Below, piece after piece: positions 7,921 through 28,726 of a stretch of DNA of 64,000 nt; the stretch's first letter is position 1; every line of letters begins with the position of its first letter. The stretch comes from Sandaracinus amylolyticus. GTDB lineage: Bacteria > Myxococcota_A > Polyangia > Polyangiales > Sandaracinaceae. The stretch is taken from assembly GCF_000737325.1 (NCBI RefSeq), contig NZ_CP011125.1, positions 1,674,001 through 1,738,000 of the forward strand, written 5' to 3'. The translations under genes and the position numbers were made by a program. Under the pieces are notes generated by a model that was not told the origin of the DNA, made no database searches, and worked only from the letters and a program-made list of their open reading frames with translations.

Positions 7921-8895
7921 TTGACGACGCAGCATCCGGCGGAGACCCAAGCGCACATCCGCGATGCCTATGGCCTCCTCTCGTCGTGGCCCCATCGCCG
8001 CCAGCGCGCTGCGGCTCCCGACCCCGCCGTCGTTGCCTCGGCGCTGCGATCCGACTCCCTCGCCGGCGCCTACCGTGCCCCACCGACCGACTCGCTGCTC
8101 GAGGCGCTCTGCCGTGCTTCCGAGTGGGGCGAGGTCGTGCTCGTGCTGATCGCGCGCGGCGAAGCCGACGCGGCGCGCCGAACGTGGACCGCGCTCGACG
8201 ACGCGCGCTCCGACTCGGACGAGCAGGCGCTCTATCTCCTCACGGGAGAGCTCGTCGCGGTGCACGCGGGCGTTCCTCTCGAGGTGCGCGCCGCGATCGC
8301 GCGAGCCATCCGCGCCGGCGACGTCATGTCCGCGCGCGACGCGCTCGTCTCGTTCGCCGAGCGCCACGGCGTCGCGGCGCGCGACCGCGTGCGACGGATC
8401 TTGGACGCGCACGCCGCGGCGATCGCCGCCGCGGTCGGCGACTTCGTCTGGCGCGAGCCGCCCCCGGCGAGCTTCCGCCCGCCGCTGAGCTTCGTGCTCC
8501 TCCTGATCGTCGGAGCGTTCACCGGCATCGGAGAGCCGCTGTCCGGCCCCCAGCTCGACGAGGAGCCAGCGGCGCCCACGATCCAGGAGCAGCTGCGCGA
8601 GATCCGCCCGCAGCGATCCGACGACGACGCGCACGGCGTGCTCGCCCCGATCGCAGCGGAGCTGCGCGACGATGCCGCCGCGTCGTTCTGCGAGCGCGCA
8701 GACGCGGAGCGGTGCCGCATCGCCCGGACGTGGGCGCGCGCTCTGCACGACGGCGATTGTGCAGGCGCGGCCCTCGCCCTCGCGCTGCTGCTGAGCGACG
8801 ACACGACGACGCCGATCGATGACGAGACGGCGTGCAACTTCCGCCGCGCACAGCGCATGGCGTGTCCCGACGTCGAAGATCCCGCGGCTCCGTGA
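7921..8895 (+). CDS. Unknown protein with one membrane segment
   Basis: A 324-residue frame starting at TTG 7921; no ATG gives a longer reasonable product and no strong ribosome site is visible. The first 180 residues are Ala-rich and helical. A single hydrophobic segment (PPLSFVLLLIVGAFTGIG) lies at about residues 190-207, followed by a polar C-terminal half with Cys residues (SFCERADAERC, GDCAGAALALALLL). This predicts an anchored protein with domains on both sides of the membrane. No family recognised. Codon use is typical of the window, which supports it being real; the start is uncertain. Confidence 0.6.
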   Translation: MTTQHPAETQAHIRDAYGLLSSWPHRRQRAAAPDPAVVASALRSDSLAGAYRAPPTDSLLEALCRASEWGEVVLVLIARGEADAARRTWTALDDARSDSDEQALYLLTGELVAVHAGVPLEVRAAIARAIRAGDVMSARDALVSFAERHGVAARDRVRRILDAHAAAIAAAVGDFVWREPPPASFRPPLSFVLLLIVGAFTGIGEPLSGPQLDEEPAAPTIQEQLREIRPQRSDDDAHGVLAPIAAELRDDAAASFCERADAERCRIARTWARALHDGDCAGAALALALLLSDDTTTPIDDETACNFRRAQRMACPDVEDPAAP

Positions 8896-17549: not shown

Positions 17550-18146
17550 ATGGACCAGCACGCTTCACCGACGTCGGCTCCGACCCCACTCGCCCGCACA
17601 TCGCTCGTCGCGTGCTTGCTCGCGATCGGGCTGATCGCCGTCGTGACCTGCCCTCGCTCAGGCCGCGCGCAGGCCGCGTCGGTCCCCGCCACGCTCGCGG
17701 GCACGTGGGTGCTCGATGGCGATCCGGCGCGCGCCGCGCGCACCATCGAGGCGGCGTTCGCGCCGAGCATCGCGACGCTCCCGGAGCTGCTCCAGGGGTT
17801 CGCGCGCGACCGCATCCGGAGCAGCATGCAGCCGCCGCGGCGCGTGCTCGTGACGATCGACGGCTCGCGCGTCCGCGTCACGCTCGAGTCGCAGCGGACG
17901 ACCGTGGTCGACGGAGCGCTCGGCGCTTCCGCGCGCGTCACGGGCGTCGAGGACGGGACCCGCGTCACTCCGCGCCTGCAGGGCGGATGGCTCGAGCTGC
18001 TGTACGAGGGCGAGGGCTCGGTGCTCCAGCAGCTGTGCTCGACCGAGCCCGATGGCGCGCGGATGCACCTGGACTTCACCGTCGTGAGCGCGCGTCTGCC
18101 CGCACCGGTGCGATATCGCCTCGACTACGTGCGTCCGCGCTCCTGA
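17550..18146 (+). CDS. Secreted unknown protein
   Basis: A 198-residue protein with a signal peptide (SLVACLLAIGLIAVV, cleavage near GRAQA). ATG 17550 is preceded by a GGGAGA-type ribosome site. The mature part has TLAGTWVLDGDPARAARTIE and LLYEGEGSVLQQLCSTEPDGARMHLDF, a pattern like small beta-barrel proteins of lipocalin type (GTWxLD). No named family recognised. Its last 22 bases overlap the 3' end of the convergent methyltransferase gene. Confidence 0.75.
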   Translation: MDQHASPTSAPTPLARTSLVACLLAIGLIAVVTCPRSGRAQAASVPATLAGTWVLDGDPARAARTIEAAFAPSIATLPELLQGFARDRIRSSMQPPRRVLVTIDGSRVRVTLESQRTTVVDGALGASARVTGVEDGTRVTPRLQGGWLELLYEGEGSVLQQLCSTEPDGARMHLDFTVVSARLPAPVRYRLDYVRPRS

Positions 18147-19000
18147 CCCGAGTCTCCGAGCAGTCGAAGCGACTCGTCGTATCCCGTGGTCAGCACGATC
18201 CACTCGAGATCGAGCGATGCACAATCGCCCTCGCGCACCGGCTCGAGCGCCTCCCACAGGCGTGCATCGAGCTCGCGTCGCTGCGCGGCGTCGAGCAGCG
18301 TGAGCGCGTAATACGCACTGCCCGCGAGCGAGCGAACGAGCGCCCAATACTCCTCCGGCGAGCCGAACTCGGCGGTGAACGCGTGCCGCCGCATCGAGAA
18401 GCGCGTGAATCCGGCGCGCGTCAGGACGCCGCGCATGTAACGCGGCGTGACGCCGAACGGGCCGCGATAGCCCTCCGGCATGTGCATGCCGGTCACGTAC
18501 TCGGCGAGCAGCGTCGCGCCGACCATCAGCAGACTGCAGTCCTCGGCCGAGCTCCAGAGCTGGATCACGAGATCGCCGTTCGGTGCGAGCACGCGCCGGA
18601 GCTCGCGCGATGCGGCGGGGATGTCGGGCAGACACCAGATCGTCTTGAGCACCGTGATCACGTCGAACGATCGATCGGGCAGATCGAGCGCGGCGACGTC
18701 CATCGCGCGGAAGGAGACGCGCCCGCGCACGTCGGGATCCCGGAGCTTCTCGTCTGCATTGGCGGCGGCGAGCCGGACCCCTGGCTCCGTGATGTCGATG
18801 CCGAGCGCCTCTGCGCCCGCGAGCGCCGCGCGGATCGGCAGATTCCCGTTGCCGGTGCCCACGTCGAGCAGTCGACGCCGCGTGAGCGCGCGGCCCTCGA
18901 GCATCGACGCTCCGAGCGCGACGCTGACGTCGGTCGACGCGGCTCCGCGCACGCCCGCGACACGATCCCAGTGATCGCGAGTGCCGTAGACGATGGTCAT
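18125..19000 (-). CDS. SAM-type (carboxy)methyltransferase of the RiPP operon
   Basis: A 291-residue class I methyltransferase. Motif I is LLDVGTGNGNLPIRAALAGA, followed by the acidic ligand GIDITEPGV and motif II FDVITVLKTIWCLPD; the C-terminal part has TPRYMRGVLTRAGFTRFSM. It is the last gene of the minus-strand operon and overlaps the CmoA-like gene by four bases (ATGA). With a carboxy-SAM synthase directly upstream, I infer it transfers a carboxymethyl group, as CmoB does to tRNA, here to a peptide thiol. Plain methylation with ordinary SAM remains possible. Confidence 0.85.
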   Translation of the reverse strand: MTIVYGTRDHWDRVAGVRGAASTDVSVALGASMLEGRALTRRRLLDVGTGNGNLPIRAALAGAEALGIDITEPGVRLAAANADEKLRDPDVRGRVSFRAMDVAALDLPDRSFDVITVLKTIWCLPDIPAASRELRRVLAPNGDLVIQLWSSAEDCSLLMVGATLLAEYVTGMHMPEGYRGPFGVTPRYMRGVLTRAGFTRFSMRRHAFTAEFGSPEEYWALVRSLAGSAYYALTLLDAAQRRELDARLWEALEPVREGDCASLDLEWIVLTTGYDESLRLLGDSGQERGRT

Positions 19001-19758
19001 TTGATCGCCACGAAGCCTTCGAAACAGACGTACTTCATGATCGACATGACGTCGGTGAAGCCCGCGCGGCGGAGCAAATCGAGGTTGCCCTGGGTCGAGA
19101 ACGGCTCGAGCACGCCTTTCAGGCTGCGCGTCTTCGCGACGATCTCTTCCGGAGCGAACTGCTGACGGATCTTGAACTCCGTGTACAGCGTGGTCGCGAT
19201 GTCCTGGAAGCGCGCGTCACAGGCGCGCACCTTCTCGAAGAGCACGAGCGCGCCGCCCCAATTGAGCGACTCGTAGAGCTTCGTCAGCAGCTCCTGGCGC
19301 CATTTCGGCGGCACGAATTGCAGCGAATAGTACGAGACGATGAAGTCCGACTTCTCGAACTCGTAGTGGACCGCATCGGCGACCTGGAGCGAGACGTTCG
19401 GGAGCCCCTCGAGGTTCTCGCGCGCCTTCTCGATCATGCGCGGCTCGACGTCGATGCCGACCCACCGCGCGTCCTTGGTGCGATTGTGCCGCGCGAGCTT
19501 CGCGACGAGGTCGCCCGCCGAGACGCCGATCTCGTAACAGATGGACTCGTTGCGAACGAAGAAGTCGCTGAGCTGACAGACGAGATCGTGCCCGACGTCG
19601 TAGAGCGGGACCGAGCGACGAACGTGCGCGCTGAACGTCTTGGGCACGTCGGCCCCGAACGTCCAAGACGCGTTCCCCGCAGCGATGCCGTCGCCGACGG
19701 TCGCGCTGGTGTCACCGGGGTCGTGCGGGGCAGTGTCTGCGACGAGGCGATGAGTCAT
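18997..19758 (-). CDS. CmoA-like carboxy-SAM synthase
   Basis: A 253-residue SAM-fold protein whose architecture matches CmoA, which makes carboxy-SAM from SAM and prephenate. Matches include FGADVPKTFSAHVRRSVPLYD (cf. CmoA VxxVFxxMVxRSVPGY), the glycine loop EIGVSAGDLVAKL, GIDVEPRMIEKARENL, IVSYYSLQFVPPKWRQELL, LNWGGALVLFEKV and the C-terminal RAGFTDVMS followed by FEGFVAIK (CmoA: CFNFxSxxAxK). It overlaps the chorismate mutase stop by four bases, an arrangement that would feed prephenate straight to it. tRNA wobble modification is unlikely because no cmoB is beside it and the neighbours are RiPP enzymes. Confidence 0.8.
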   Translation of the reverse strand: MTHRLVADTAPHDPGDTSATVGDGIAAGNASWTFGADVPKTFSAHVRRSVPLYDVGHDLVCQLSDFFVRNESICYEIGVSAGDLVAKLARHNRTKDARWVGIDVEPRMIEKARENLEGLPNVSLQVADAVHYEFEKSDFIVSYYSLQFVPPKWRQELLTKLYESLNWGGALVLFEKVRACDARFQDIATTLYTEFKIRQQFAPEEIVAKTRSLKGVLEPFSTQGNLDLLRRAGFTDVMSIMKYVCFEGFVAIK

Positions 19759-20054
19759 TTCGAGAGGGTCTCCTCGATGCGTGCGACACCGAGCTGATCT
19801 GCGATCGCCTGCTCGTGGATGCGCTCGAACAGCGCGCGCACGAGCACAGGAGACAGACCGAGGCTCAGTCCGGTCGCGATTCGATCGTCGACGAGCGCGA
19901 GAAACCGATTGGGCTGCACCACGGCGATTCCGGAGCGGCGTTTGACCTCGGCGATCGCCAGGACCACCCGTCGTCTCGCCGCGAGCGCCTCGAGCAGCGC
20001 CCGATCCGCGTCGTCGACTCGGCGCCTCAGCTCTTCGAGCGATTCCGTGCTCAT
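19755..20054 (-). CDS. AroQ-type chorismate mutase
   Basis: A 99-residue three-helix protein of AroQ type: LEELRRRVDDADRALLEAL, AARRRVVLAIAEVKRRSG and a third helix with RALFERIHEQAIADQ. It would convert chorismate to prephenate. Conserved residues include the first-helix Arg, the Arg of AARRR and the Lys of EVKRR. The segment equivalent to DPxRE reads QPNRF, so Asp and the catalytic Glu are changed, and the Ser of HEESI is Ala. These changes may tune the activity or indicate a related pericyclic reaction. Prephenate supply for the next enzyme is the clear contextual role. Confidence 0.85.
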   Translation of the reverse strand: MSTESLEELRRRVDDADRALLEALAARRRVVLAIAEVKRRSGIAVVQPNRFLALVDDRIATGLSLGLSPVLVRALFERIHEQAIADQLGVARIEETLSK

Positions 20055-20064
20055 CGCGATCGCT

Positions 20065-20394
20065 CTAGTCGACGATGAAGAGCGTGGCGCCGCCCGGCGC
20101 CGACGAGCGATGCGGCTCCGCGCCTTCCGCGACGACGTACGTCATGCCTTCGGTCAGCGTGAGCACACGACCGTCGGCGAGGTGCGTGACGAGCGTGCCC
20201 TCGAGCACGTGGAGCACGTGGCCGCGCTCGCACCAATGGTCGGCTTCGTAGCCGGGCGTGTACTCGACGCGTCGCACCCGGACGTTGCCCATCTCGAACG
20301 TGCGCCAGATGGCCTCGCCGCGGAGGCCCGCGTGGATCGTCGGCGCGATCGTCCGGAGATCCGTGGTCGTGAACGGGACGGACTCGATCTTCAT
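20065..20394 (-). CDS. Small cupin of the DHCW-motif family
   Basis: A 109-residue single cupin. The first motif reads ADHWCERGHVLHVLEGTL, the DHCW-type signature, and the second contains EGMTYVVAEGAEPHRSSA. Such cupins are annotated as metal-binding proteins of unknown role. The start overlaps the stop of the partner gene by four bases, and chorismate mutase begins ten bases after its stop. In this setting it may be a tailoring enzyme or a chaperone for a labile intermediate; function unproven. Confidence 0.8.
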   Translation of the reverse strand: MKIESVPFTTTDLRTIAPTIHAGLRGEAIWRTFEMGNVRVRRVEYTPGYEADHWCERGHVLHVLEGTLVTHLADGRVLTLTEGMTYVVAEGAEPHRSSAPGGATLFIVD

Positions 20395-21221
20395 GACGTC
20401 ATCTCCGCGCGCACGACGCCGAGGCTCAGGAACGTCTCGAGCGCCGCGTCGTGCTCGTCGTCGTCGTCGGGGGGCAGGGAGGATCGGACCTCGTCGAACG
20501 AGCGAGGCGACGCGAGCGCGTCGAAGAGCTGCTTCGCAGTGCGCGAGAGCTCGGCGATGTCGTAGTCGCTATCGACCGAGGGCACGTAGACGAGGAAGTG
20601 CTCGGGCTCCGCTGCGGCGGTGTTCGCAGCGACGAGCTCGGGCTGCGCGAGCCACGAGGCGAGCGCGTGCGTCGTCGAGACGACGCGGCCCGTGCCCGAC
20701 TGCACGTAGCGTCGCGGCTGCGGCTCGCCCTCGCTCGGGCGTGCAGGCCACGAGGACTCGGGCGCGTCGGCCAGCTGCCGAATCAGCGACACGACGGTGC
20801 TCTCGAGCGCGATCGTGTCGACGAGCTCGCGCACTGGCGCGCTCGGCGGGTGACGACGGAGGAAATCGAGGAAGGCCGCGCACGACCGATAGACGTGCGG
20901 TCCGTCGTCTCCATACCCGACCGAGCGCAGGTATCGTCGCGCGACCTCGCGCGTGTCGACACCCGCGGACTCCAGGAGACGCAGCGTGAGAGGCGCGCCC
21001 GTGCCCAGCGCGAAGAGCGCGCCGCGCTCGAGGCGGAATCGATACGTCTCCACTGCCCAGCGCGTCATCTTGCTGTGCGCTGCATAGTCCGCGGCGATGC
21101 GCGCCTCTTCGGGAGAGAGACCATGGGCGCGGCCATCGATCGCCCCTGCGAGCACACTCTCGTGCAGCTCGGGCTCACGCAGGATGCGCCGCCACGTCTT
21201 CCAGACGAGCTCAGCGTCCAT
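20391..21221 (-). CDS. MNIO partner protein with RRE-like C-terminal domain
   Basis: A 276-residue protein placed directly after the MNIO gene, where MNIO partners (MbnC, TglI type) usually lie. Start ATG 21221 is inside the last 11 bases of the MNIO frame and follows GAGAGG; a start at 21272 would overlap 62 bases. Residues 1-170 are helical (VWKTWRRILREPEL, FLDFLRRHPPSAP). The last about 75 residues have the winged-helix pattern of RiPP recognition elements: EHFLVYVPSVDSDYDIAEL, AKQLFDALASPRSFDEVRS, then ALETFLSLGVVRAE. It is likely to bind the precursor leader. Sequence similarity to a named family is not obvious by eye. Confidence 0.72.
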   Translation of the reverse strand: MDAELVWKTWRRILREPELHESVLAGAIDGRAHGLSPEEARIAADYAAHSKMTRWAVETYRFRLERGALFALGTGAPLTLRLLESAGVDTREVARRYLRSVGYGDDGPHVYRSCAAFLDFLRRHPPSAPVRELVDTIALESTVVSLIRQLADAPESSWPARPSEGEPQPRRYVQSGTGRVVSTTHALASWLAQPELVAANTAAAEPEHFLVYVPSVDSDYDIAELSRTAKQLFDALASPRSFDEVRSSLPPDDDDEHDAALETFLSLGVVRAEMTS

Positions 21222-22170
21222 GACATGCCTCTCGCGCCCCGGCGCGCGTCGTGCGGCGGCTCCGCGGACCATAAGCCGCGTCCCACGTCCGCCGCGCCCT
21301 CGTGAGGTCGGCGAGGATCATGTCGAGATCGCGCTCGCGATCGAGCACTCGAGTCGCGTCGTGGTGGCCACGACCCTGGAATTCGAGGAACACGGCGCCG
21401 ACTCGGGTATGCTCGAGGACGTGCTGGAGCATCTCCCAGACGGGCTCCGGAACCGCGCTGTCGTGCCAGTCGTGATAGACGCCGTCGTGGAGGCTCCCGC
21501 CCGCGAGATGAATGGCGATCACGCGCTCGAGCGGGATGGTCGCGAGATAATCCCACGCGTCGAACCCGGGATGGTTCACCGAGTTCGTGTAGACGTTGTG
21601 GAGGTCGAGATGCAGGTACGTCCCTGCGCGCTCGACCAGCGCCGCGAGGAACTCGGCCTCGCGCATCTCGCTGCCCGGACAGACGACGTAATATGCAGCG
21701 TTCTCGTGCGCGAGCGGGATCCCGTAGAGATCTCCGAGCGCGCGCGCACGGCGGCCGACTCGCTCCACCTCCGACCGGGAGAACTGGAGCGGACTGCTCC
21801 AGATGTCCGACCACGAGGCGTCCGCATAGAAGCAGTGGTTGGACACCCACGGGCTCCCGATGTGCCGTGCGATGGGCACGTGTCGGCGAACCGCGGGCGT
21901 GCTCTCGAGCGGGTCGAACCCGAAGTCGCAGCCGTAGTTCGAGTGCGCGACGAGCGGCGCTCGTTTCGCCAGCTCCTCAAGCTGCTCGGCGGCTCCGGGC
22001 GCCATCACGACGCGCCCGTCGAGAGGGGCCATGACCGCGTCGAGCAACACCTCGAACGCGTCGACCTCGTGCTGGGCGAAGGGGAACCAGTCGTAGATCT
22101 CGGGATTGAACTGCAGGCCGACGCCGAGCTGCGGAACGGAGAGGTCGGAGACTGTCGTGCTCGTAGTCAC
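21211..22170 (-). CDS. DUF692 multinuclear non-haem iron oxygenase (MNIO) RiPP enzyme
   Basis: A 319-residue TIM-barrel protein of the MbnB/TglH class, which oxidatively remodels Cys or other residues of peptides. Family motifs are LVAHSNYG (H76), WVSNHCFY (H112; the family usually has SEH), LAHENAAYYVVCPGSEM (E156), LHLDLHNVYTNSVNH (D189, N192, H200), IAIHLAGG (H221), HDWHDSAVPEPVW (H233, D234, H236) and FLEFQ (E263). The first His of the GLRxxH motif is replaced: GLQFNPEI (N22). The gene follows the 26-residue peptide by 78 bases containing a stem-loop. The product probably acts on the terminal Cys of that peptide. Confidence 0.9.
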   Translation of the reverse strand: MTTSTTVSDLSVPQLGVGLQFNPEIYDWFPFAQHEVDAFEVLLDAVMAPLDGRVVMAPGAAEQLEELAKRAPLVAHSNYGCDFGFDPLESTPAVRRHVPIARHIGSPWVSNHCFYADASWSDIWSSPLQFSRSEVERVGRRARALGDLYGIPLAHENAAYYVVCPGSEMREAEFLAALVERAGTYLHLDLHNVYTNSVNHPGFDAWDYLATIPLERVIAIHLAGGSLHDGVYHDWHDSAVPEPVWEMLQHVLEHTRVGAVFLEFQGRGHHDATRVLDRERDLDMILADLTRARRTWDAAYGPRSRRTTRAGAREACHGR

Positions 22171-22211
22171 TCGCTCTGCTCTCGGTCTCGATCGAATCCA
22201 GGGATGGTGAG

Positions 22212-22242
22212 TGCGGGCGACGGGTGCACTCCGTCGCCCGCA
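22212..22242 (-). terminator. Perfect stem-loop between precursor gene and MNIO gene
   Basis: GCGGGCGACGG (22213-22223) and CCGTCGCCCGC (22231-22241) are exact inverted repeats around a 7-base loop; a T-A pair extends the stem to 12 bp. It lies between the precursor stop (22249) and the MNIO start (22170). No T-run follows. A partial terminator or 3' stabiliser here would give more precursor mRNA than enzyme mRNA, as is usual in RiPP operons. Confidence 0.7.
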
Positions 22243-22248
22243 ATCAAA

Positions 22249-22329
22249 TCAGCAGACGACGATCGGACGGGCGACGCCCGCGCGGAGACCGGTCTTGACC
22301 ACGAGCTTCTTCGCCTTCTTGCTGTTCAT
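22249..22329 (-). CDS. 26-residue RiPP precursor peptide ending in Cys
   Basis: ATG 22329 opens an 81-base frame ending TGC TGA. The peptide begins MNSKKAKKLVVK, continues TGLRAG, and ends VARPIVVC. A purine-rich stretch (AAGAAAGAGAAAGACG) lies just before the ATG and contains a weak ribosome site. The N-terminal half is strongly basic (six Lys) and the C-terminal half is hydrophobic with the only Cys at the last position. Position directly upstream of an MNIO operon and the terminal Cys fit a substrate for Cys-directed MNIO chemistry. A Leu at -4 from AG could serve C39 cleavage after Gly18, leaving an eight-residue core. It could conceivably be chance, but size, place and Cys argue otherwise. 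Confidence 0.78.
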   Translation of the reverse strand: MNSKKAKKLVVKTGLRAGVARPIVVC

Positions 22330-22755
22330 CGTCTTTCTCTTTCTTTCTTACTGCACAGGAGTGTTGTCGGCCTATCCGACATCACCCTGTCGCACATTGA
22401 AATCAGTTCTCGATGACGTCAATCGTGAATTCGAGAGCGCAGTTTGGAAAGGGAGAGTCGAGGTCAGATTTACAGCGCGCCTGGAGTGTGTGATTCAGCG
22501 GGGTTCTTGCGCGCGCGAGGTCGCCGATTGGCGACGCGTCCGTGGCAATTCGAGATCGCGGCTGACGGTGCGACGAGTCCCTTGCCGCGGCGCTCGGTTC
22601 CAATGCGGGCTCACTTGTGAACGAAGTGCTGCCGCACTCCTGGTACACGGCACTCGCTGCGGTCCAATCGCGCAATCTCGATTGGGCCCCCGACCGCGGT
22701 GACGGTGACGCGAGAGTCGCGCTGATCGCTGGCAATGCGAACGACGATGCTATGA
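22330..22755. promoter_or_regulatory. Divergent promoter region of the RiPP locus
   Basis: 426 bases between the precursor and the HlyD gene, clearly lower in GC than the neighbours. On the minus strand a TTGACG lies in an exact TGACGTCA palindrome (22414-22421), 85 bases before the precursor ATG; the matching -10 (CAATGT) is weak. A 69-residue plus-strand frame from GTG 22617 runs through the right part but looks unlike a protein. The two operons are probably controlled together from here; no dedicated regulator gene is present in the cluster. Confidence 0.45.
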
Positions 22756-23964
22756 TTGGCGCTCTTCCGGGGCGGGCGTCGATTGGCGACTCATTTTTCT
22801 CGATCGATTCGCGCTCTCGAGGGTGAGCGCGCGCGAGGTGCATCACTGATCGTCGTGGGAATCGGCGCGGTGATCGTGGCCTGGGTCGTATGGGGCGCGT
22901 TCGCGCGAGTGACGCTCTGGGACGTTTCCGCGGACTCACGCGTGGAGTCGAGCGCGGCGGCGCACGTCGTCGGAGCGCCCCTCGCCGGACGTGTTCTCTC
23001 GGTCCACGTCGAGCTCGGGCAGCCGGTCGCCGCGGGGGACGTCCTGCTCGAGCTCGAGTCCGCGGAAATTCGCGCGGCGGAGCGCGAATCGGTCGCGACC
23101 CGCGACGCGCTCGCGGCACAGCTCGCCGCGATCGACGAGGAGATCGATGCTGCGCGAGGGCTCGTCGACGCGATCGGACGGGGCTCGCGCGGCGCGGTCG
23201 CCGAGGCCGATGCGGAGCGTGAGCGCGCGGACGCGGAGGCGCGCTGGGCGCGCGTCGAGCAGGCGCGCATCGCTCGTCTGGGCTCGGCAGGCGCGACCTC
23301 CGAGCGTGATCTCGCGCGCGCGGTGCTCGAGGCCGAGATGCACACGTCGCAGGCGCTGGCGGCCGCCCACGCGACGCAGCGCATCGCCGCGGACGCGCGC
23401 ACCCGCGCGGCCGACGCGGTGGTCCGCCTCGAGAGCCTGCGACGCGAGCGGGTGCGTCTGCGCGGCGAGCACGCCGCGGAAGAAGCGCAGATCCAGCGCC
23501 TCGAGGTCGAGCTCGCGCGCCGCCGCATCGTCGCGCCGATCGCGGGGACCGTCGGGGAGCTCTCGGCGCTGCGGCCGGGCTCGGTCGTGACCGAAGGTGA
23601 GCGCTTGGTCGCGCTGGTGCCCGACGGGCCGCTGCGGGTCGTCGGGCATTTCGCCGCGAGCAGCGCGCTGGGGCGCGTGTCCCCGGGCCAGCGCGCGCAG
23701 ATGCGCATGGACGCGTTCCCGTGGACGCGGTTCGGGATGATCGGGCTCGTCGTCGCGCGGGTGGGCAACGAGCCGCGCGACGGCCTCGTGCGCGTCGAGC
23801 TCGAGGTGACGCACGCGCCGAGCTCGATTCCGATCGCGCACGGGCTCGAGGGCAGCGTCGAAGTCGCGGTCGAGCGAGTGAGCCCGATCGAGCTCGTGCT
23901 GCGCGCGGTGGGTCAGGCGCTCGACGGCGACGTCGAGACCGGGCGCGGAGGAGCATCGCGATGA
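22756..23964 (+). CDS. HlyD-family membrane fusion protein (bacteriocin/RiPP export)
   Basis: A 402-residue periplasmic adaptor with one N-terminal membrane segment (ASLIVVGIGAVIVAWVVWGAF). A lipoyl-like half (VVGAPLAGRVLSVHVELGQPV), a long Ala/Arg/Glu-rich coiled coil (about residues 105-255) and the second lipoyl half (RRRIVAPIAGTVGELSALRPG) follow, then the beta-barrel (VVGHFAASSALGRVSPGQRAQM). The only in-frame starts before the membrane segment are TTG 22756 and TTG 22783; ATG 22752 is in another frame. The gene overlaps the C39 exporter by four bases (ATGA) and would link it to an outer-membrane exit duct, which is not encoded here. Confidence 0.85.
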   Translation: MALFRGGRRLATHFSRSIRALEGERARGASLIVVGIGAVIVAWVVWGAFARVTLWDVSADSRVESSAAAHVVGAPLAGRVLSVHVELGQPVAAGDVLLELESAEIRAAERESVATRDALAAQLAAIDEEIDAARGLVDAIGRGSRGAVAEADAERERADAEARWARVEQARIARLGSAGATSERDLARAVLEAEMHTSQALAAAHATQRIAADARTRAADAVVRLESLRRERVRLRGEHAAEEAQIQRLEVELARRRIVAPIAGTVGELSALRPGSVVTEGERLVALVPDGPLRVVGHFAASSALGRVSPGQRAQMRMDAFPWTRFGMIGLVVARVGNEPRDGLVRVELEVTHAPSSIPIAHGLEGSVEVAVERVSPIELVLRAVGQALDGDVETGRGGASR

Positions 23965-26606
23965 GATGGCTCGCTCCGGAGGTCGTGCAGACGTCGTCGA
24001 TGGACTGCGGCCCTGCAGCGCTGAAGTGCCTCCTCGAAGGGTTCGGCGTGCACGTGGGGTACGGACGCCTGCGCGAGGCTTGTCACACCGACGTCGATGG
24101 GACGTCGATCGACACGCTCGAGGACGTCGCGCGTGCGCTCGGCCTCGACGCCGAGCAGCTGCTCGTTCCCTACGATCACGTGCTCGCGCCCGAGAGCGGA
24201 TCGCTGCCCGCGATCGTGATCGTGCGACTCCCGAGCGGCTTCACGCACTTCGTCGTGATCTACCGCCGTCACGGGCCCTTCGTGCAGGTGATGGATCCCG
24301 CGACGGGGCGGCGGTGGACGACCGTCGCGCTGCTCCAGCGCGATCTCTACCAACACCGGATGGCGGTGCCGGCCGCTGCATTTCGCGAGTACGCGGTCTC
24401 GAAGGAGATGTCGGCGGTGCTCGATCGACGCATGGCGTCGATCGGCATCGAGAGCGCGGAGCGCGCGGCGCTGTGGGCGACCGCGATCGCCGATCCCGGG
24501 CCGTGGGGCATCGCGGCGCTCGACGCGGCCGTGCGCGTCGTGGCGGCGCTCGCGACCGCGGGAGAGCTCGAGCGCGGATCGGCATCGACGATCGTCGCGG
24601 CGCTCGCGCGACGCGCCGCCGAACATCCGAACGTCATTCCCGAGCGCATGTGGACTGCGCACCTGTGTCCGGCGGACGACGCCGACGAGCCGCACGTGAT
24701 GATGCGCGGCGCGGTGGTGCTGCGCGCGAAAGGACTGATCGCGAAGACGGAAGGCGACGCGCTCGACACGCCCGACGCTGCCGAGTCCGAGGTCCTGCGT
24801 CGCGCGCTCGACGAGGCTCGCCCCGCCGCGCTCCGTGAGCTCGTCCGCGTGCTCGCGAAGGACGGTGTGGTCGCGCCGATCGCGTGCACGATCGCGATCG
24901 CGATGGCCGCGATCGGCGCGCTCGTGGAAGCGCTGCTCCTGCGAGGCATGCTCGATCTCGGGGTGATGCTCCCGCTGCGCGAGCAGCGCATCGCCGCGGT
25001 GCTCGCGATGATCGCGCTCCTGGCGACCACGATGGCGCTGGAGCTGCCACAGACCGCGATGGTGCAGACGCTGGGAAGGCGCCTCGAAGCGCGGCTCCGG
25101 GTCGCGCTCCAGACGAAGATCCCGCGCCTGCCCGATCGCTTCTTCCAGAGCCGGCTCACGTCGGACATGGCGCAGAGGAGCCACTCTTTGTCGTCGCTCC
25201 AAGCATTGCCGCGGCTCGGCGGGTCGTTGCTCGCGTCGTTCTTCGGATTGATCGCGACCGTGACCGGGCTCGTGTGGCTCGACCCTGCGGGCGCACCGAT
25301 CGCGATCGAGTCGGCGGTGCTCGCGATCGTCCTTCCGCTCGTCTTCGTGCCGGTGCTCTCGGAGCGCGAGCTGCGCGTGCAGACGCACCTCGGCGCGATC
25401 GCGCGGTATTACCTCGACGCGCTCCTCGGGATCACCGCGGTGCGCGCGCACTCCGCGGAGCGTGCGGTGCGGCGCGAGCACGAGAGCCTGCTCGTCGAGT
25501 GGCAGCGATCCGCGCGCGCGATGTCGAGCGCGGCCGTGCGCGTCGACACGCTCGTCGCGCTCGCGGGCGCGGCGCTCGCCATCGTGTCGATCGCGGGATA
25601 TCTCGCGCGCGGCGGCGCGCTCGGAGGGTCGCTGTTGGTCGCCTATTGGGCGCTCGCGATTCCGATGCTCGGTGAGCAAGTCGCGCTCTCGGCGCGCCTC
25701 TATCCGCACGTGCGCGGCACGTTCTTGCGACTGCTCGAGCCGCTCGACGCGCCCGAAGATCCGGTGCCCGACGTCGTCGCGAGCGGCGCGGCGCAGGACG
25801 CGGTCGCGCTCCGGTTCGACGCGGTCGAGGTGCGCGCGGGAGGCCACCGCGTGCTGCACGACGTCGAGCTCACGATCGCGGCTGGCGAGCACGTCGCGAT
25901 CGTCGGGCAGTCGGGCGCGGGGAAGAGCTCGTTGCTCGCGACGCTCCTCGGCTTCTACACACCGATTCACGGAGAGGTGCGCGTCGATGGCGCGCCGCTC
26001 GATCCTGCGCGCCTCGCGTCGCTCCGTCGGGAGCTCGCGTGGATCGACCCCGCGGTGCAGCTCTGGAATCGATCGCTGCTCGCGAACCTTCGCTACGGCG
26101 CGGACGATCCTGCGATCGCGCCGGGGCGGGTGCTCGACGAGGCGCACCTCCTTCCGATCCTCGAGCGTCTGCCTGACGGCCTCGCGACGCCGCTCGGCGA
26201 AGGCGGCGCGCTGCTGTCCGGCGGCGAGGGGCAGCGCGTGCGCGCGGCGCGCGCGTTCCTGCGCTCGAACGTCCGGCTCGCGCTGCTCGACGAGCCGTTC
26301 CGTGGCCTCGACCGCGACGCGCGGCGCACGCTGACCGAGCGCGCGCGGCACATCTTCCGCGAGGCGACGCTGCTCGCGGTCACGCACGACGTGCGCGACA
26401 CGTCGAGCTTCGATCGTGTTGTGGTGATCGAAGACGGGCAGGTCATCGAGGACGGTGCGCCCGCCGAGCTGCTCGCCGCCGAGGGCTCTCGGTATCGAGC
26501 GCTCTTCGACGCCGACGTGGCGCTCGCGGATCGGCTCTGGGGGGAGGGCGTCTTTCGCCGCATCCACGTCTCGTGCGGCGCGCTGCGCGAGGAGCGTGCG
26601 CAATGA
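23961..26606 (+). CDS. C39-peptidase ABC exporter (processing and secretion)
   Basis: An 881-residue exporter. The N-terminal peptidase C39 domain has all active-site residues: Q10, C16 (SSMDCGPAALKCLL), H96 (GFTHFVVIYR) and D112 (VMDPATG). A winged-helix-like insert of about 170 residues comes next, then the membrane domain (about residues 300-570). The ATPase has Walker A GQSGAGKSS, signature LLSGGEGQRV, Walker B LALLDEPFRGLD and the switch His in LAVTHDV. It likely removes the leader of the 26-residue peptide during export. Coupled by ATGA overlaps to HlyD before it and the second ABC gene after it. The extra insert is unusual compared with classical double-glycine exporters. Confidence 0.92.
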   Translation: MRWLAPEVVQTSSMDCGPAALKCLLEGFGVHVGYGRLREACHTDVDGTSIDTLEDVARALGLDAEQLLVPYDHVLAPESGSLPAIVIVRLPSGFTHFVVIYRRHGPFVQVMDPATGRRWTTVALLQRDLYQHRMAVPAAAFREYAVSKEMSAVLDRRMASIGIESAERAALWATAIADPGPWGIAALDAAVRVVAALATAGELERGSASTIVAALARRAAEHPNVIPERMWTAHLCPADDADEPHVMMRGAVVLRAKGLIAKTEGDALDTPDAAESEVLRRALDEARPAALRELVRVLAKDGVVAPIACTIAIAMAAIGALVEALLLRGMLDLGVMLPLREQRIAAVLAMIALLATTMALELPQTAMVQTLGRRLEARLRVALQTKIPRLPDRFFQSRLTSDMAQRSHSLSSLQALPRLGGSLLASFFGLIATVTGLVWLDPAGAPIAIESAVLAIVLPLVFVPVLSERELRVQTHLGAIARYYLDALLGITAVRAHSAERAVRREHESLLVEWQRSARAMSSAAVRVDTLVALAGAALAIVSIAGYLARGGALGGSLLVAYWALAIPMLGEQVALSARLYPHVRGTFLRLLEPLDAPEDPVPDVVASGAAQDAVALRFDAVEVRAGGHRVLHDVELTIAAGEHVAIVGQSGAGKSSLLATLLGFYTPIHGEVRVDGAPLDPARLASLRRELAWIDPAVQLWNRSLLANLRYGADDPAIAPGRVLDEAHLLPILERLPDGLATPLGEGGALLSGGEGQRVRAARAFLRSNVRLALLDEPFRGLDRDARRTLTERARHIFREATLLAVTHDVRDTSSFDRVVVIEDGQVIEDGAPAELLAAEGSRYRALFDADVALADRLWGEGVFRRIHVSCGALREERAQ

Positions 26607-28726
26607 CCGACGCGCTCGAGCGCGCGTCGTGGCCCATCGAGCGCGTGCACGAGGCGATGGCTGCGCTCGCGAGTCGCGCCGGGCTCGCGCAGGACCCGCT
26701 GCCTCACGGGATCGTGGTGCCGTCGCGGGCGCGCCTCGTCGGGCGAGCGGTCGACCGATGGCTCGAGCGCGTCGCCGACGTGCTCCGCATCGACGCGGAG
26801 TCGGTCGATGCGCGTTATCCCGAGACGGCGCGGATGCTCGCGAGCGTGGCGCCCGCGATCGTGTCGATCGACGAGCACGAGCATCGATGGCTCGCCGTGA
26901 TCCGGCGCGAAGGCGACCGGCTGCGCGTTCTCCTGCCCGACGACGAGACGCGCACGTTCCACATCGAGGAAGTACGCGCGCGCGTCGCCGGAGAATTCGA
27001 CGCGCTCGGCGACCAGCTCGTCGATGGCCTGCTCGAGTCGGCGAACGTCACCGCGCGGAGTGGCTCGCGCGCGCGTCGCGCGCTTCGTGATCGGCTCGTC
27101 GCGCACGCGCACGTTCGTCGCGCGTTCATGATCCGCGCGCATCCCTCGGCGCCGCTGCGCACGCTCGTCCGCGATGCGCGCCTCGTGGCGCCGCTGGTCT
27201 CGCTGCTGCTCGCGCACGTGCTGGGATCGATCGCGCTCGTGCTGGCGTGGGTCGCGCTCGGGAGCGGCGTGCTCGGTGGGCGCGTCGACCCCGGGTGGCT
27301 CACGGCGGCGGCGCTGCTCGCGCTCACGCGCGTTCCGCTGCGCGCGGCAGCGGCCACGGCGCAGGGGCGCTTCGCGATCCGCTGTGCACGCCTCCTCAAG
27401 CAGCGCTTGCTGTGGGGCGCGCTGCGCATCGATCGCGACGCGATCCGACGCGAGGGCGCGGGCCAGCTCCTCGCACGCGTGCTGGAGTCCGAAGCGGTCG
27501 AGTCGCTCGCGCTCGACGGCGGTGTCGCGTCGGCGCTCGCGCTCGTCGAGCTCGCGGTCGCCGCGGTCGTGCTCGCGCTCGGCGGCGCATATCCGCTCCT
27601 CGCGGCGATGGGCGTGGTGATCGTCGTCGGCGCCGTCGCGATCGGCCGGTTCGTGAGGCGGCGGCGTGCGTGGATCGATGCGCGGATCGGGCTCACGCAC
27701 GACCTCGTGGAGCACATGGTCGGGCACCGCACACGGCTCGCGCAGGAGCCCTCCGATCGCTGGCACGAGGAGGAAGACGTCGCGCTCGGCGCCGCGATGT
27801 CGCTCGCGCGCAGCAGCGACGCGGCCGAGCTCCCGCTGCGCGTCCTCTCGCGCGCGTATCTGGTGCTCGCGATCGCCGCGCTCGCACATCCGTTCATCGT
27901 GGGTGCCAGTCAGACGTCGCTCGCGGTGGCGGTGTTCGGAGCGCTCCTCGCGCAGCGGGCGCTCGCGGCGCTCGGCAGCGGCGTCGAGCAGCTCGCGCGC
28001 GCGGCGATCGGCGCGGATCGGCTCGCGGTGCTCCTGCGCGCCGGCGAGACCCGTGGAGCTCCCGGCGATCCGTCGCTCGCGATCGCGCCCGAGAACGTCG
28101 ACGGCGCGGACGTCGCGACGCTGGAGGTGCGCGGCGCGACGCTGCGCTACGAGGGACGCCTCGAGCCCGCGCTGCAGCACGCGACGCTGCGGATCGCCGC
28201 GAACGATCGGATCTTGTGCGTGGGCCCGTCGGGCGGTGGGAAGAGCACGCTCGCGCAGCTGCTCGCGGCGGTGCGGCGGCCGAGCGCCGGGCTGGTGCTC
28301 TGCCACGGGCTCGATACCAAGACGCTCGGCGAGGACGAGTGGCGGCGGCGCGTGGCGCTCGTCCCGCAATTCCACGACAACCACGTGTTCGCGGGCACGC
28401 TCGGGTTCAATCTCCTGCTCGGTGATCGATGGCCCGCGACGGGCGCCGATCTCGCTCGCGCCGAGGAGGTGTGCCGTGCGCTCGGGCTGGGGTCGTTGAT
28501 CGATCGGATGCCTGCCGGGCTCATGCAGCAGGTCGGCGACAGCGGCTGGCAGCTCTCCCACGGAGAACGCAGTCGCGTGTTCCTCGCGCGCGCGCTGCTC
28601 GCGCAGAGCGCGCGCGTGCTCGTCCTGGACGAGAGCTTCGGCGCGCTCGATCCGGAGACGCTCGAGCACTGCGTGCACGCCACCCTGGAGCGCGCGCCGG
28701 CGGTGATGGTGATCGCGCACCCGTAG
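26603..28726 (+). CDS. Second ABC exporter with degenerate N-terminal domain (NHLM-type)
   Basis: A 707-residue ABC transporter of the type found as the second ATPase in NHLM-like bacteriocin systems. The N-terminal 130 residues resemble a C39 fold without the catalytic Cys or His (APAIVSIDEHEHRWLAVI, LRVLLPDDETRTFHIEEV). Membrane helices lie at about 200-470. The ATPase has Walker A GPSGGGKST, a changed signature LSHGERSR, and Walker B VLVLDESFGALD. The protein stops at VMVIAHP, right after the switch His, so the usual last 30-40 residues are missing. It probably works with the C39 exporter as a heterodimer. Confidence 0.88.
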   Translation: MTDALERASWPIERVHEAMAALASRAGLAQDPLPHGIVVPSRARLVGRAVDRWLERVADVLRIDAESVDARYPETARMLASVAPAIVSIDEHEHRWLAVIRREGDRLRVLLPDDETRTFHIEEVRARVAGEFDALGDQLVDGLLESANVTARSGSRARRALRDRLVAHAHVRRAFMIRAHPSAPLRTLVRDARLVAPLVSLLLAHVLGSIALVLAWVALGSGVLGGRVDPGWLTAAALLALTRVPLRAAAATAQGRFAIRCARLLKQRLLWGALRIDRDAIRREGAGQLLARVLESEAVESLALDGGVASALALVELAVAAVVLALGGAYPLLAAMGVVIVVGAVAIGRFVRRRRAWIDARIGLTHDLVEHMVGHRTRLAQEPSDRWHEEEDVALGAAMSLARSSDAAELPLRVLSRAYLVLAIAALAHPFIVGASQTSLAVAVFGALLAQRALAALGSGVEQLARAAIGADRLAVLLRAGETRGAPGDPSLAIAPENVDGADVATLEVRGATLRYEGRLEPALQHATLRIAANDRILCVGPSGGGKSTLAQLLAAVRRPSAGLVLCHGLDTKTLGEDEWRRRVALVPQFHDNHVFAGTLGFNLLLGDRWPATGADLARAEEVCRALGLGSLIDRMPAGLMQQVGDSGWQLSHGERSRVFLARALLAQSARVLVLDESFGALDPETLEHCVHATLERAPAVMVIAHP

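Follow-up and report, generated by a model that had tools for sequence, protein, structure and literature searches.

A PEARL-free gene cluster of Sandaracinus amylolyticus that combines TglHI-type enzymes, an encoded Cys-ending peptide and a peptidase-exporter

Organization of the locus

The window analyzed here, a stretch of 64,000 nucleotides from the soil myxobacterium Sandaracinus amylolyticus (contig NZ_CP011125.1, positions 1,674,001 to 1,738,000), carries at positions 18125 to 28726 two divergent groups of genes that a first-pass annotation had read as a locus for a ribosomally synthesized and post-translationally modified peptide (RiPP). All ten genes that it named were found where it had placed them. 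The minus-strand group starts with the open reading frame (ORF) of a precursor peptide, MNSKKAKKLVVKTGLRAGVARPIVVC (22249-22329), recognized by its ORF and its conservation in a sister genome, with a KKLVVK leader and an encoded C-terminal Cys. A gap with an RNA hairpin (22212-22242), detected by its folding z-scores, separates it from the gene of an MNIO orthologous to TglH (21211-22170), assigned by PF05114, PDB 8hci_D and a tree. Next come the genes of a TglI orthologue, a partner protein with a peptide-binding RRE (20391-21221; NF058584 and PDB 8hci_C), a DHCW-motif cupin (20065-20394; NF038084, 150.5 bits against a cutoff of 70) of a kind that occurs also in other TglHI-type clusters, a chorismate-mutase-like protein of the AroQ family (19755-20054; PF01817, 57.6 bits), a predicted TglE/CmoA-like synthase of carboxy-S-adenosylmethionine (carboxy-SAM; 18997-19758; TIGR00740) and a class I methyltransferase, TmoS-like by homology, that we propose as an S-(carboxy)methyltransferase (18125-19000). 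The plus-strand group encodes a HlyD-family membrane fusion protein (from a TTG at 22756 or from 22783, to 23964; PF13437), an ABC exporter with an N-terminal C39 leader peptidase (23961-26606; PF03412, PF00005 and PF00664) and a second ABC exporter subunit, a permease/ATPase (26603-28726; PF00005 and matches of the NHLM_micro_ABC2/CydC type).

The description of both groups as internally overlapping operons holds for four junctions of the minus strand and for both of the plus strand, but not for the cupin and chorismate-mutase-like genes, which lie 10 bases apart. The divergent control region (22330-22755), which at its downstream edge resembles a promoter of the exporter operon (22729-22756, plus strand), measures the 426 bases first given to it if HlyD starts at TTG 22756. 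However, the start may be at 22783, because the promoter-like -10 element ends at 22756, on the proposed TTG start itself, and because the DNA alignment with the sister species, read by eye, looks shifted upstream of about 22783.

The entire cluster is kept, with its gene order unchanged, in a sister genome of the same genus (G573, locus L058), where the cluster proteins are 76-96% identical to those of the window. The match with the sister genome runs out at 18162 and 28724; that genome therefore delimits the cluster independently, at boundaries that agree with those first drawn. Parts of the upstream flank of the window were found 5 to 12 kb beyond the cluster in G573, and the genomic position is therefore roughly shared. 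The locus is thus confirmed as real and coherent, while the interpretation given to it in the first-pass annotation is partly supported.

Precursor peptide and intergenic hairpin

The peptide ORF, located before the MNIO gene, has 26 codons, the last of which encodes Cys. It is identical in L058 at 81 of 81 nucleotides (positions 8705-8785 there), against about 84-86% identity in the neighbouring genes, and the regions that flank it are less conserved than the ORF. Since the cluster recurs in the same order in a second genome with this identical ORF, it is not a product of chance. Where the cluster proteins of the two genomes have the same residue, the codon is also the same in 2024 of 2819 cases (0.718). 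The neighbours thus differ in about 28% of such codons, whereas the peptide ORF shows no synonymous change and its 25 degenerate codons are all identical (chance about 2.5e-4, with codons taken as independent). This hints at a constraint on the nucleotide sequence itself. In profile searches of the window proteins the peptide matched no known family, and no convincing second peptide with the KKLVVKTGL motif was found in the host genome, searched as one contig of 10,327,335 bases.

The hairpin has a stem of 12 pairs and no clear U tract, with z-scores of -6.2 in the window and -5.1 in L058, and one G-C pair of the stem in the window is replaced by A-U in L058. It may serve in RNA processing or in attenuation and so allow an excess of the peptide to be produced.

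Related loci in other genomes

About 85,000 species genomes, scanned with an MNIO alignment, gave 31 loci, which were sorted together with a locus on a Burkholderia plasmid (L006) and the sister genome. Fifteen are tgl-type loci (type I), all with TglB, TglG, TglF and CmoA; where their small frames were read, the precursors mostly end in ..FDLDDIEV.ESKVFA. Another thirteen, the Cys-repeat loci (type II), combine CmoA with a radical SAM protein and a methyltransferase linked to TglI and have neither PEARL nor TglG. Three actinobacterial loci are tmo-like, with PEARL, TglG and a relative of the window methyltransferase; two of these PEARL loci also contain a B12 radical SAM enzyme of the kind known from the tmo pathway. 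CmoA-like proteins are present in 15/15 tgl-type, 13/13 Cys-repeat and 0/3 tmo-like loci. Only the window and L058 (type III) have the chorismate-mutase-like, HlyD and C39 genes, and these two also lack TglB, TglG, TglF and radical SAM proteins.

The first-pass annotation would have been contradicted by genomes that carry its gene set but no small frame ending in Cys. None was seen; the full set, with chorismate mutase and exporter, recurs once, with the identical Cys-ending peptide. The combination of MNIO, TglI and CmoA recurs widely, but with a PEARL that supplies the Cys or with precursors that have internal Cys residues. The absence of a PEARL from the cluster was borne out, as TglB is missing from the window and L058. 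The profile PF04738 detects TglB (79.8 bits) yet finds no match in the host genome, which makes it unlikely that the genome encodes such a PEARL at all. The window and L058 also gave no homologue of TglF or of TglG, the M50 protease that releases the amino acid, and no match to the type II radical SAM protein or to TmoD, the B12 radical SAM enzyme; the tgl proteins were readily detected in control loci.

No relative of the cluster was found in viral contigs. Draws of Myxococcota genomes (331 searched with the partner and 318 of the class with the MNIO) returned only the sister species, a Sorangium metagenome-assembled genome (MAG) from the order to which the host belongs, and two distant loci, one of which (L060) adjoins a large frame that resembles PEARLs by eye, the other (L061) showing 46% identity. 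The Sorangium locus is a complete tgl-type cluster outside Pseudomonas, with TglF, TglG, TglA, TglH, TglI, TglB, TglE and the DHCW cupin. A gammaproteobacterial MAG (L021) has TglH and TglI only, with no CmoA, PEARL or recognized precursor within 10 kb.

The TglH-type MNIO and its partner

The MNIO matches PF05114 with 151 bits and TglH of Pseudomonas syringae (PDB 8hci_D) with 413 bits (E 6.8e-123), at 59% identity over 284 residues (alignment A1). The iron ligands of TglH are His71, His107, Glu151, Asp184, Asn187, His216, Asp229, His231 and Glu258 (PMC10880893); they correspond to H76, H112, E156, D189, N192, H221, D234, H236 and E263 of the window protein, all invariant in A1. Asn73, an essential residue reported only in TglH and its orthologues (PMC10880893), corresponds to N78, also invariant, with the numbering shifted by five from TglH. 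In the MNIO tree the window pair forms one branch (support 99), type II another (93) and the actinobacterial loci a third (97); the position of the window pair relative to the other branches is not resolved. The host genome has two further MNIO genes (8798324-8799115 and 4957558-4958427), one of them a strong PF05114 match.

The partner had been described as RRE-like. It is indeed an RRE protein, but more than that, as it matches TglI over its full length (PDB 8hci_C, E 5.5e-33) and is a TglI orthologue, with a score of 132 bits against the TglI model NF058584 that lies below the curated equivalog cutoff of 450. In TglI, Arg183, Lys185, Tyr203 and Lys212 have been implicated in the recognition of TglA (PMC10880893), whose recognition motif is acidic (FDLDDIE), whereas the window leader is basic (KKLVVK). 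Among the TglI proteins of tgl-type loci (n=15, plus the PDB sequence) residue 185 is always Lys and residue 183 is Arg in all but one, and the strand is basic. Positions 183 and 185 are Glu (one Lys) and Pro in type II, which has KKLSVK-like leaders, and Ala and Pro in the window pair, and in both groups the strand is acidic. Similarly, segment 206-214 reads SVDSDYDIA or SLESDYDIA in the window pair (net charge -3) in place of, for example, TLQARHKFT in tgl-type proteins (net +2). Judged from these residues, a switch of the TglI groove from basic to acidic matches the switch of the leader from acidic to basic. Since leader and partner charges change together, this peptide is probably tied to this partner.

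The distances point the same way. TglHI needs a defined spacing between leader and Cys (PMC9016710); in TglA-Cys there are 15 residues from the motif Phe to the Cys, and in the window peptide Leu9 and Val11 lie 17 and 15 residues from Cys26. There is also a precedent: on TmoA-Cys, whose C-terminal Cys is genetically encoded, a TglHI-type pair works with no PEARL involved (PMC9303977). It is thus well supported by the sequences that the TglHI-type MNIO and its partner would act on the encoded C-terminal Cys. In this respect the first-pass annotation, which had proposed such a reaction next to a TglE-like enzyme and without a PEARL, is backed by homology and covariation.

Proposed pathway and its alternatives

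With moderate confidence, we propose that this is a PEARL-free RiPP cluster that uses pearlin chemistry to build a C-terminal 3-thiaglutamate on a peptide that is itself exported. The basic KKLVVK segment of the 26-residue peptide would bind the TglI-like partner and place Cys26 in the TglH-like iron site, where the MNIO would excise the beta-carbon as formate (-14 Da) and leave a C-terminal 2-mercaptoglycine. The TglE/CmoA-like protein would convert S-adenosylmethionine (SAM) and prephenate to carboxy-SAM, with which the methyltransferase would alkylate the thiol to give 3-thiaglutamate (net +44 Da). For the 26-mer the computed masses along this path are 2765.66, 2751.65 and 2809.65. The C39 peptidase of the HlyD/ABC exporter would then remove the leader, perhaps at ..LRAG/VARPIVV-, and the modified peptide would be secreted, instead of a free amino acid being released. 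The sequence itself shows the gene content, the TglHI orthology, the catalytic residues, the conserved Cys-ending peptide, the complementary charges and the lack of PEARL, TglG and TglF; the reactions, the use of carboxy-SAM as donor, the place of cleavage and the export are all inferred.

Several observations weigh against this proposal. Only two genomes of one genus carry the cluster, so the conservation of the peptide is partly due to kinship. The CmoA-like protein aligns a Thr at Arg199 of E. coli CmoA, as does the TglE-position protein of a Pseudomonas locus (L022). The methyltransferase resembles S-methyltransferases of tmo-type clusters, which lack CmoA, and not TglF. The presumed C39 site is Ala-Gly rather than the usual Gly-Gly. 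Finally, the chorismate-mutase-like protein has Gln at position 48 and Phe at position 52, having lost Asp48 and Glu52.

This last loss concerns the source of prephenate. The catalytic residues of AroQ, R11, R28, K39, D48, R51, E52 and Q88 (E. coli numbering), are otherwise kept, as Arg11, Arg28, Lys39, Arg51 and Gln88 align. However, Asp48 and Glu52 are present in the two other chorismate mutases of the genome and missing from PchB, an isochorismate lyase, which is also the best solved-structure match, although a weak one. The protein might therefore have another activity, isochorismate-lyase-like or regulatory, with housekeeping prephenate feeding the pathway, a variant that is compatible with the proposed export of a 3-thiaglutamate peptide and that we rate at somewhat less than an even chance. 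Against it stand the residues that are kept and the overlap of the gene with that of the CmoA-like protein, which would need prephenate. Because the protein lacks the Asp48 and Glu52 of the organism's two other chorismate mutases, the cluster's own prephenate supply, as first claimed, is possible but not established.

Concerning the alkylation, TglE is reported to make carboxy-SAM (PMC10491745), and the high similarity of TglE/F to CmoA/B is noted in a review. The CmoA-like protein scores 138 bits against TIGR00740 (cutoff 193) and shares about 59% identity with the protein at the TglE position of L022. All other proteins of the genome resemble TIGR00740 in traces at most; no canonical CmoA was found elsewhere in the genome and no genome protein exceeded the CmoB cutoff. 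The transferase of the first-pass annotation is a methyltransferase, but one like the enzyme of tmo-type clusters and unlike TglF. Among the surveyed proteins it is closest to methyltransferases of the Actinokineospora and Streptomyces PEARL loci (26-35% identity). This homology favours an ordinary S-methylation after the same excision, as TmoS S-methylates peptidyl 2-mercaptoglycine, the same thiol, with SAM (PMC9303977). The product would be a peptide with a C-terminal S-methyl-2-mercaptoglycine, and the CmoA-like protein would act elsewhere or be vestigial. The mass shifts foreseen in the first-pass annotation are correct for carboxymethyl, but the S-methyl product returns to 2765.66 (zero net shift), so mass alone cannot tell it apart. 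The S-carboxymethyl step is not established as it was first stated, the transferase being closest to TmoS-like S-methyltransferases. Yet the tmo-like loci lack CmoA, and no radical SAM follow-on enzyme is present here. Carboxymethylation is the most likely S-alkylation, since the genes of the CmoA-like protein and the methyltransferase overlap and the former is 92% identical in the sister species; we consider plain methylation rather unlikely.

The methyltransferase has a Lys119, directly after a predicted strand (112-118, the fourth), that is private to the two window-type proteins. It was considered as a carboxylate-binding residue for carboxy-SAM, but TglF also lacks it, and it amounts to no more than a hint. 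A structure of the methyltransferase predicted by AlphaFold is of mediocre quality (pLDDT 63), and the folds that it matches are those of class I methyltransferases in general. Two minor results belong here: a Phocaeicola CmoA-like match was discarded as a relative, as no MNIO lies nearby, and the TglF-position protein of L022 (7925-8596) is UbiG-like, with no CmoB match at E 1e-4.

That the peptide is a pearlin-like scaffold, from which free 3-thiaglutamate is released by a protease encoded elsewhere while either this amino acid or some unrelated peptide is the cargo of the exporter, agrees with all biochemically studied TglHI pathways, which end in amino acid release (PMC9016710, PMC9303977). 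We regard it as improbable here: there is no PEARL to reload a scaffold and no TglG at the locus, and an exporter with a leader peptidase is kept beside the peptide gene in both genomes. Least probable is that the 26-codon ORF, short and without a known family, is not the substrate and that the TglHI pair acts on another peptide, given that the ORF is conserved down to its synonymous sites, precedes the MNIO gene as in the other types, and encodes a basic leader that fits the acidic TglI groove at the right distance from the Cys.

If a peptide ending in 3-thiaglutamate is indeed exported, its thiahemiaminal could serve as a warhead that decomposes to reactive species upon cleavage by a carboxypeptidase or protease, a suggestion that we make tentatively and think less likely than not to hold. 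A model with the peptide as the product has been raised before, in a study that argued against it since the clusters then known had no transporters (PMC9303977).

Relation to known systems

The window shares with the tgl pearlin pathway of P. syringae and its relatives the TglH-, TglI- and TglE-type proteins, the excision of the Cys beta-carbon and the expected carboxymethylation. It differs in that it lacks the PEARL TglB, TglG and TglF, its Cys is encoded, its leader is short and basic where the tgl motif is FDLDDIE, and C39/HlyD/ABC export and a chorismate-mutase-like gene are added. With the tmo pathway to 3-thiahomoleucine (Tistrella, with similar loci in Actinokineospora, where a B12 radical SAM enzyme is present, and partly in Streptomyces) it has in common the TglHI-type pair and, for the step that follows excision, a related methyltransferase, but it has no B12 radical SAM enzyme, PEARL or protease, and it has a CmoA-like protein and an exporter. 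The type II loci (Burkholderia, Bradyrhizobium, Sphingomonas and others) likewise combine the absence of a PEARL with a basic leader, a CmoA-like protein and often the DHCW cupin; unlike the window, they have 6-10 internal Cys residues, a radical SAM protein and the TglI-linked methyltransferase, and no adjacent chorismate-mutase-like gene or C39 exporter. Methanobactin and bufferin pathways also use an MNIO and a partner on encoded Cys, but with MNIOs of other subfamilies, oxazolone or thiooxazole products and no carboxy-SAM enzymes.

We found no description of a PEARL-free TglHI system with an encoded Cys in the open-access literature. The known TglHI pathways release single thia-amino acids of unknown role, and the study of the tmo pathway could not rule out modified peptides as the real products, noting that those clusters had no peptide transporters (PMC9303977). 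The window cluster offers such a case, as it lacks a PEARL and a releasing protease, encodes its Cys and has a peptidase-exporter alongside, and the question of the peptide as product becomes testable with a 26-residue substrate short enough to synthesize. Apparently, TglHI/carboxy-SAM chemistry has here moved from a recycled scaffold to an encoded and exported peptide, which may be the first secreted peptide bearing such an end; for relatives of these enzymes, the release of single unusual amino acids is the only known outcome. The cluster also unites TglHI, carboxy-SAM and TmoS-type enzymes in a way that is new, and the joint change of charge in leader and partner could help to assign precursors to their TglI.

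Some observations concern the other loci of the survey. Ala-rich precursors behind a KKLS[V/I]K-like leader were seen in the Cys-repeat loci L006, L010, L011, L019, L023, L024 and L028-L034; that of L006 matched no family. The Cys-repeat precursors have their 6-10 internal Cys mostly every seven residues (CAAxAAx), which suggests that they bear several 3-thiaglutamate-like residues along one face of a helix. Two Sphingomonas Cys-repeat loci also carry a TglF homologue. Finally, the clusters of L030 and L031 are almost the same although one MAG is assigned to Xanthobacteraceae and the other to Candidatus Binataceae, which probably reflects mis-binning.

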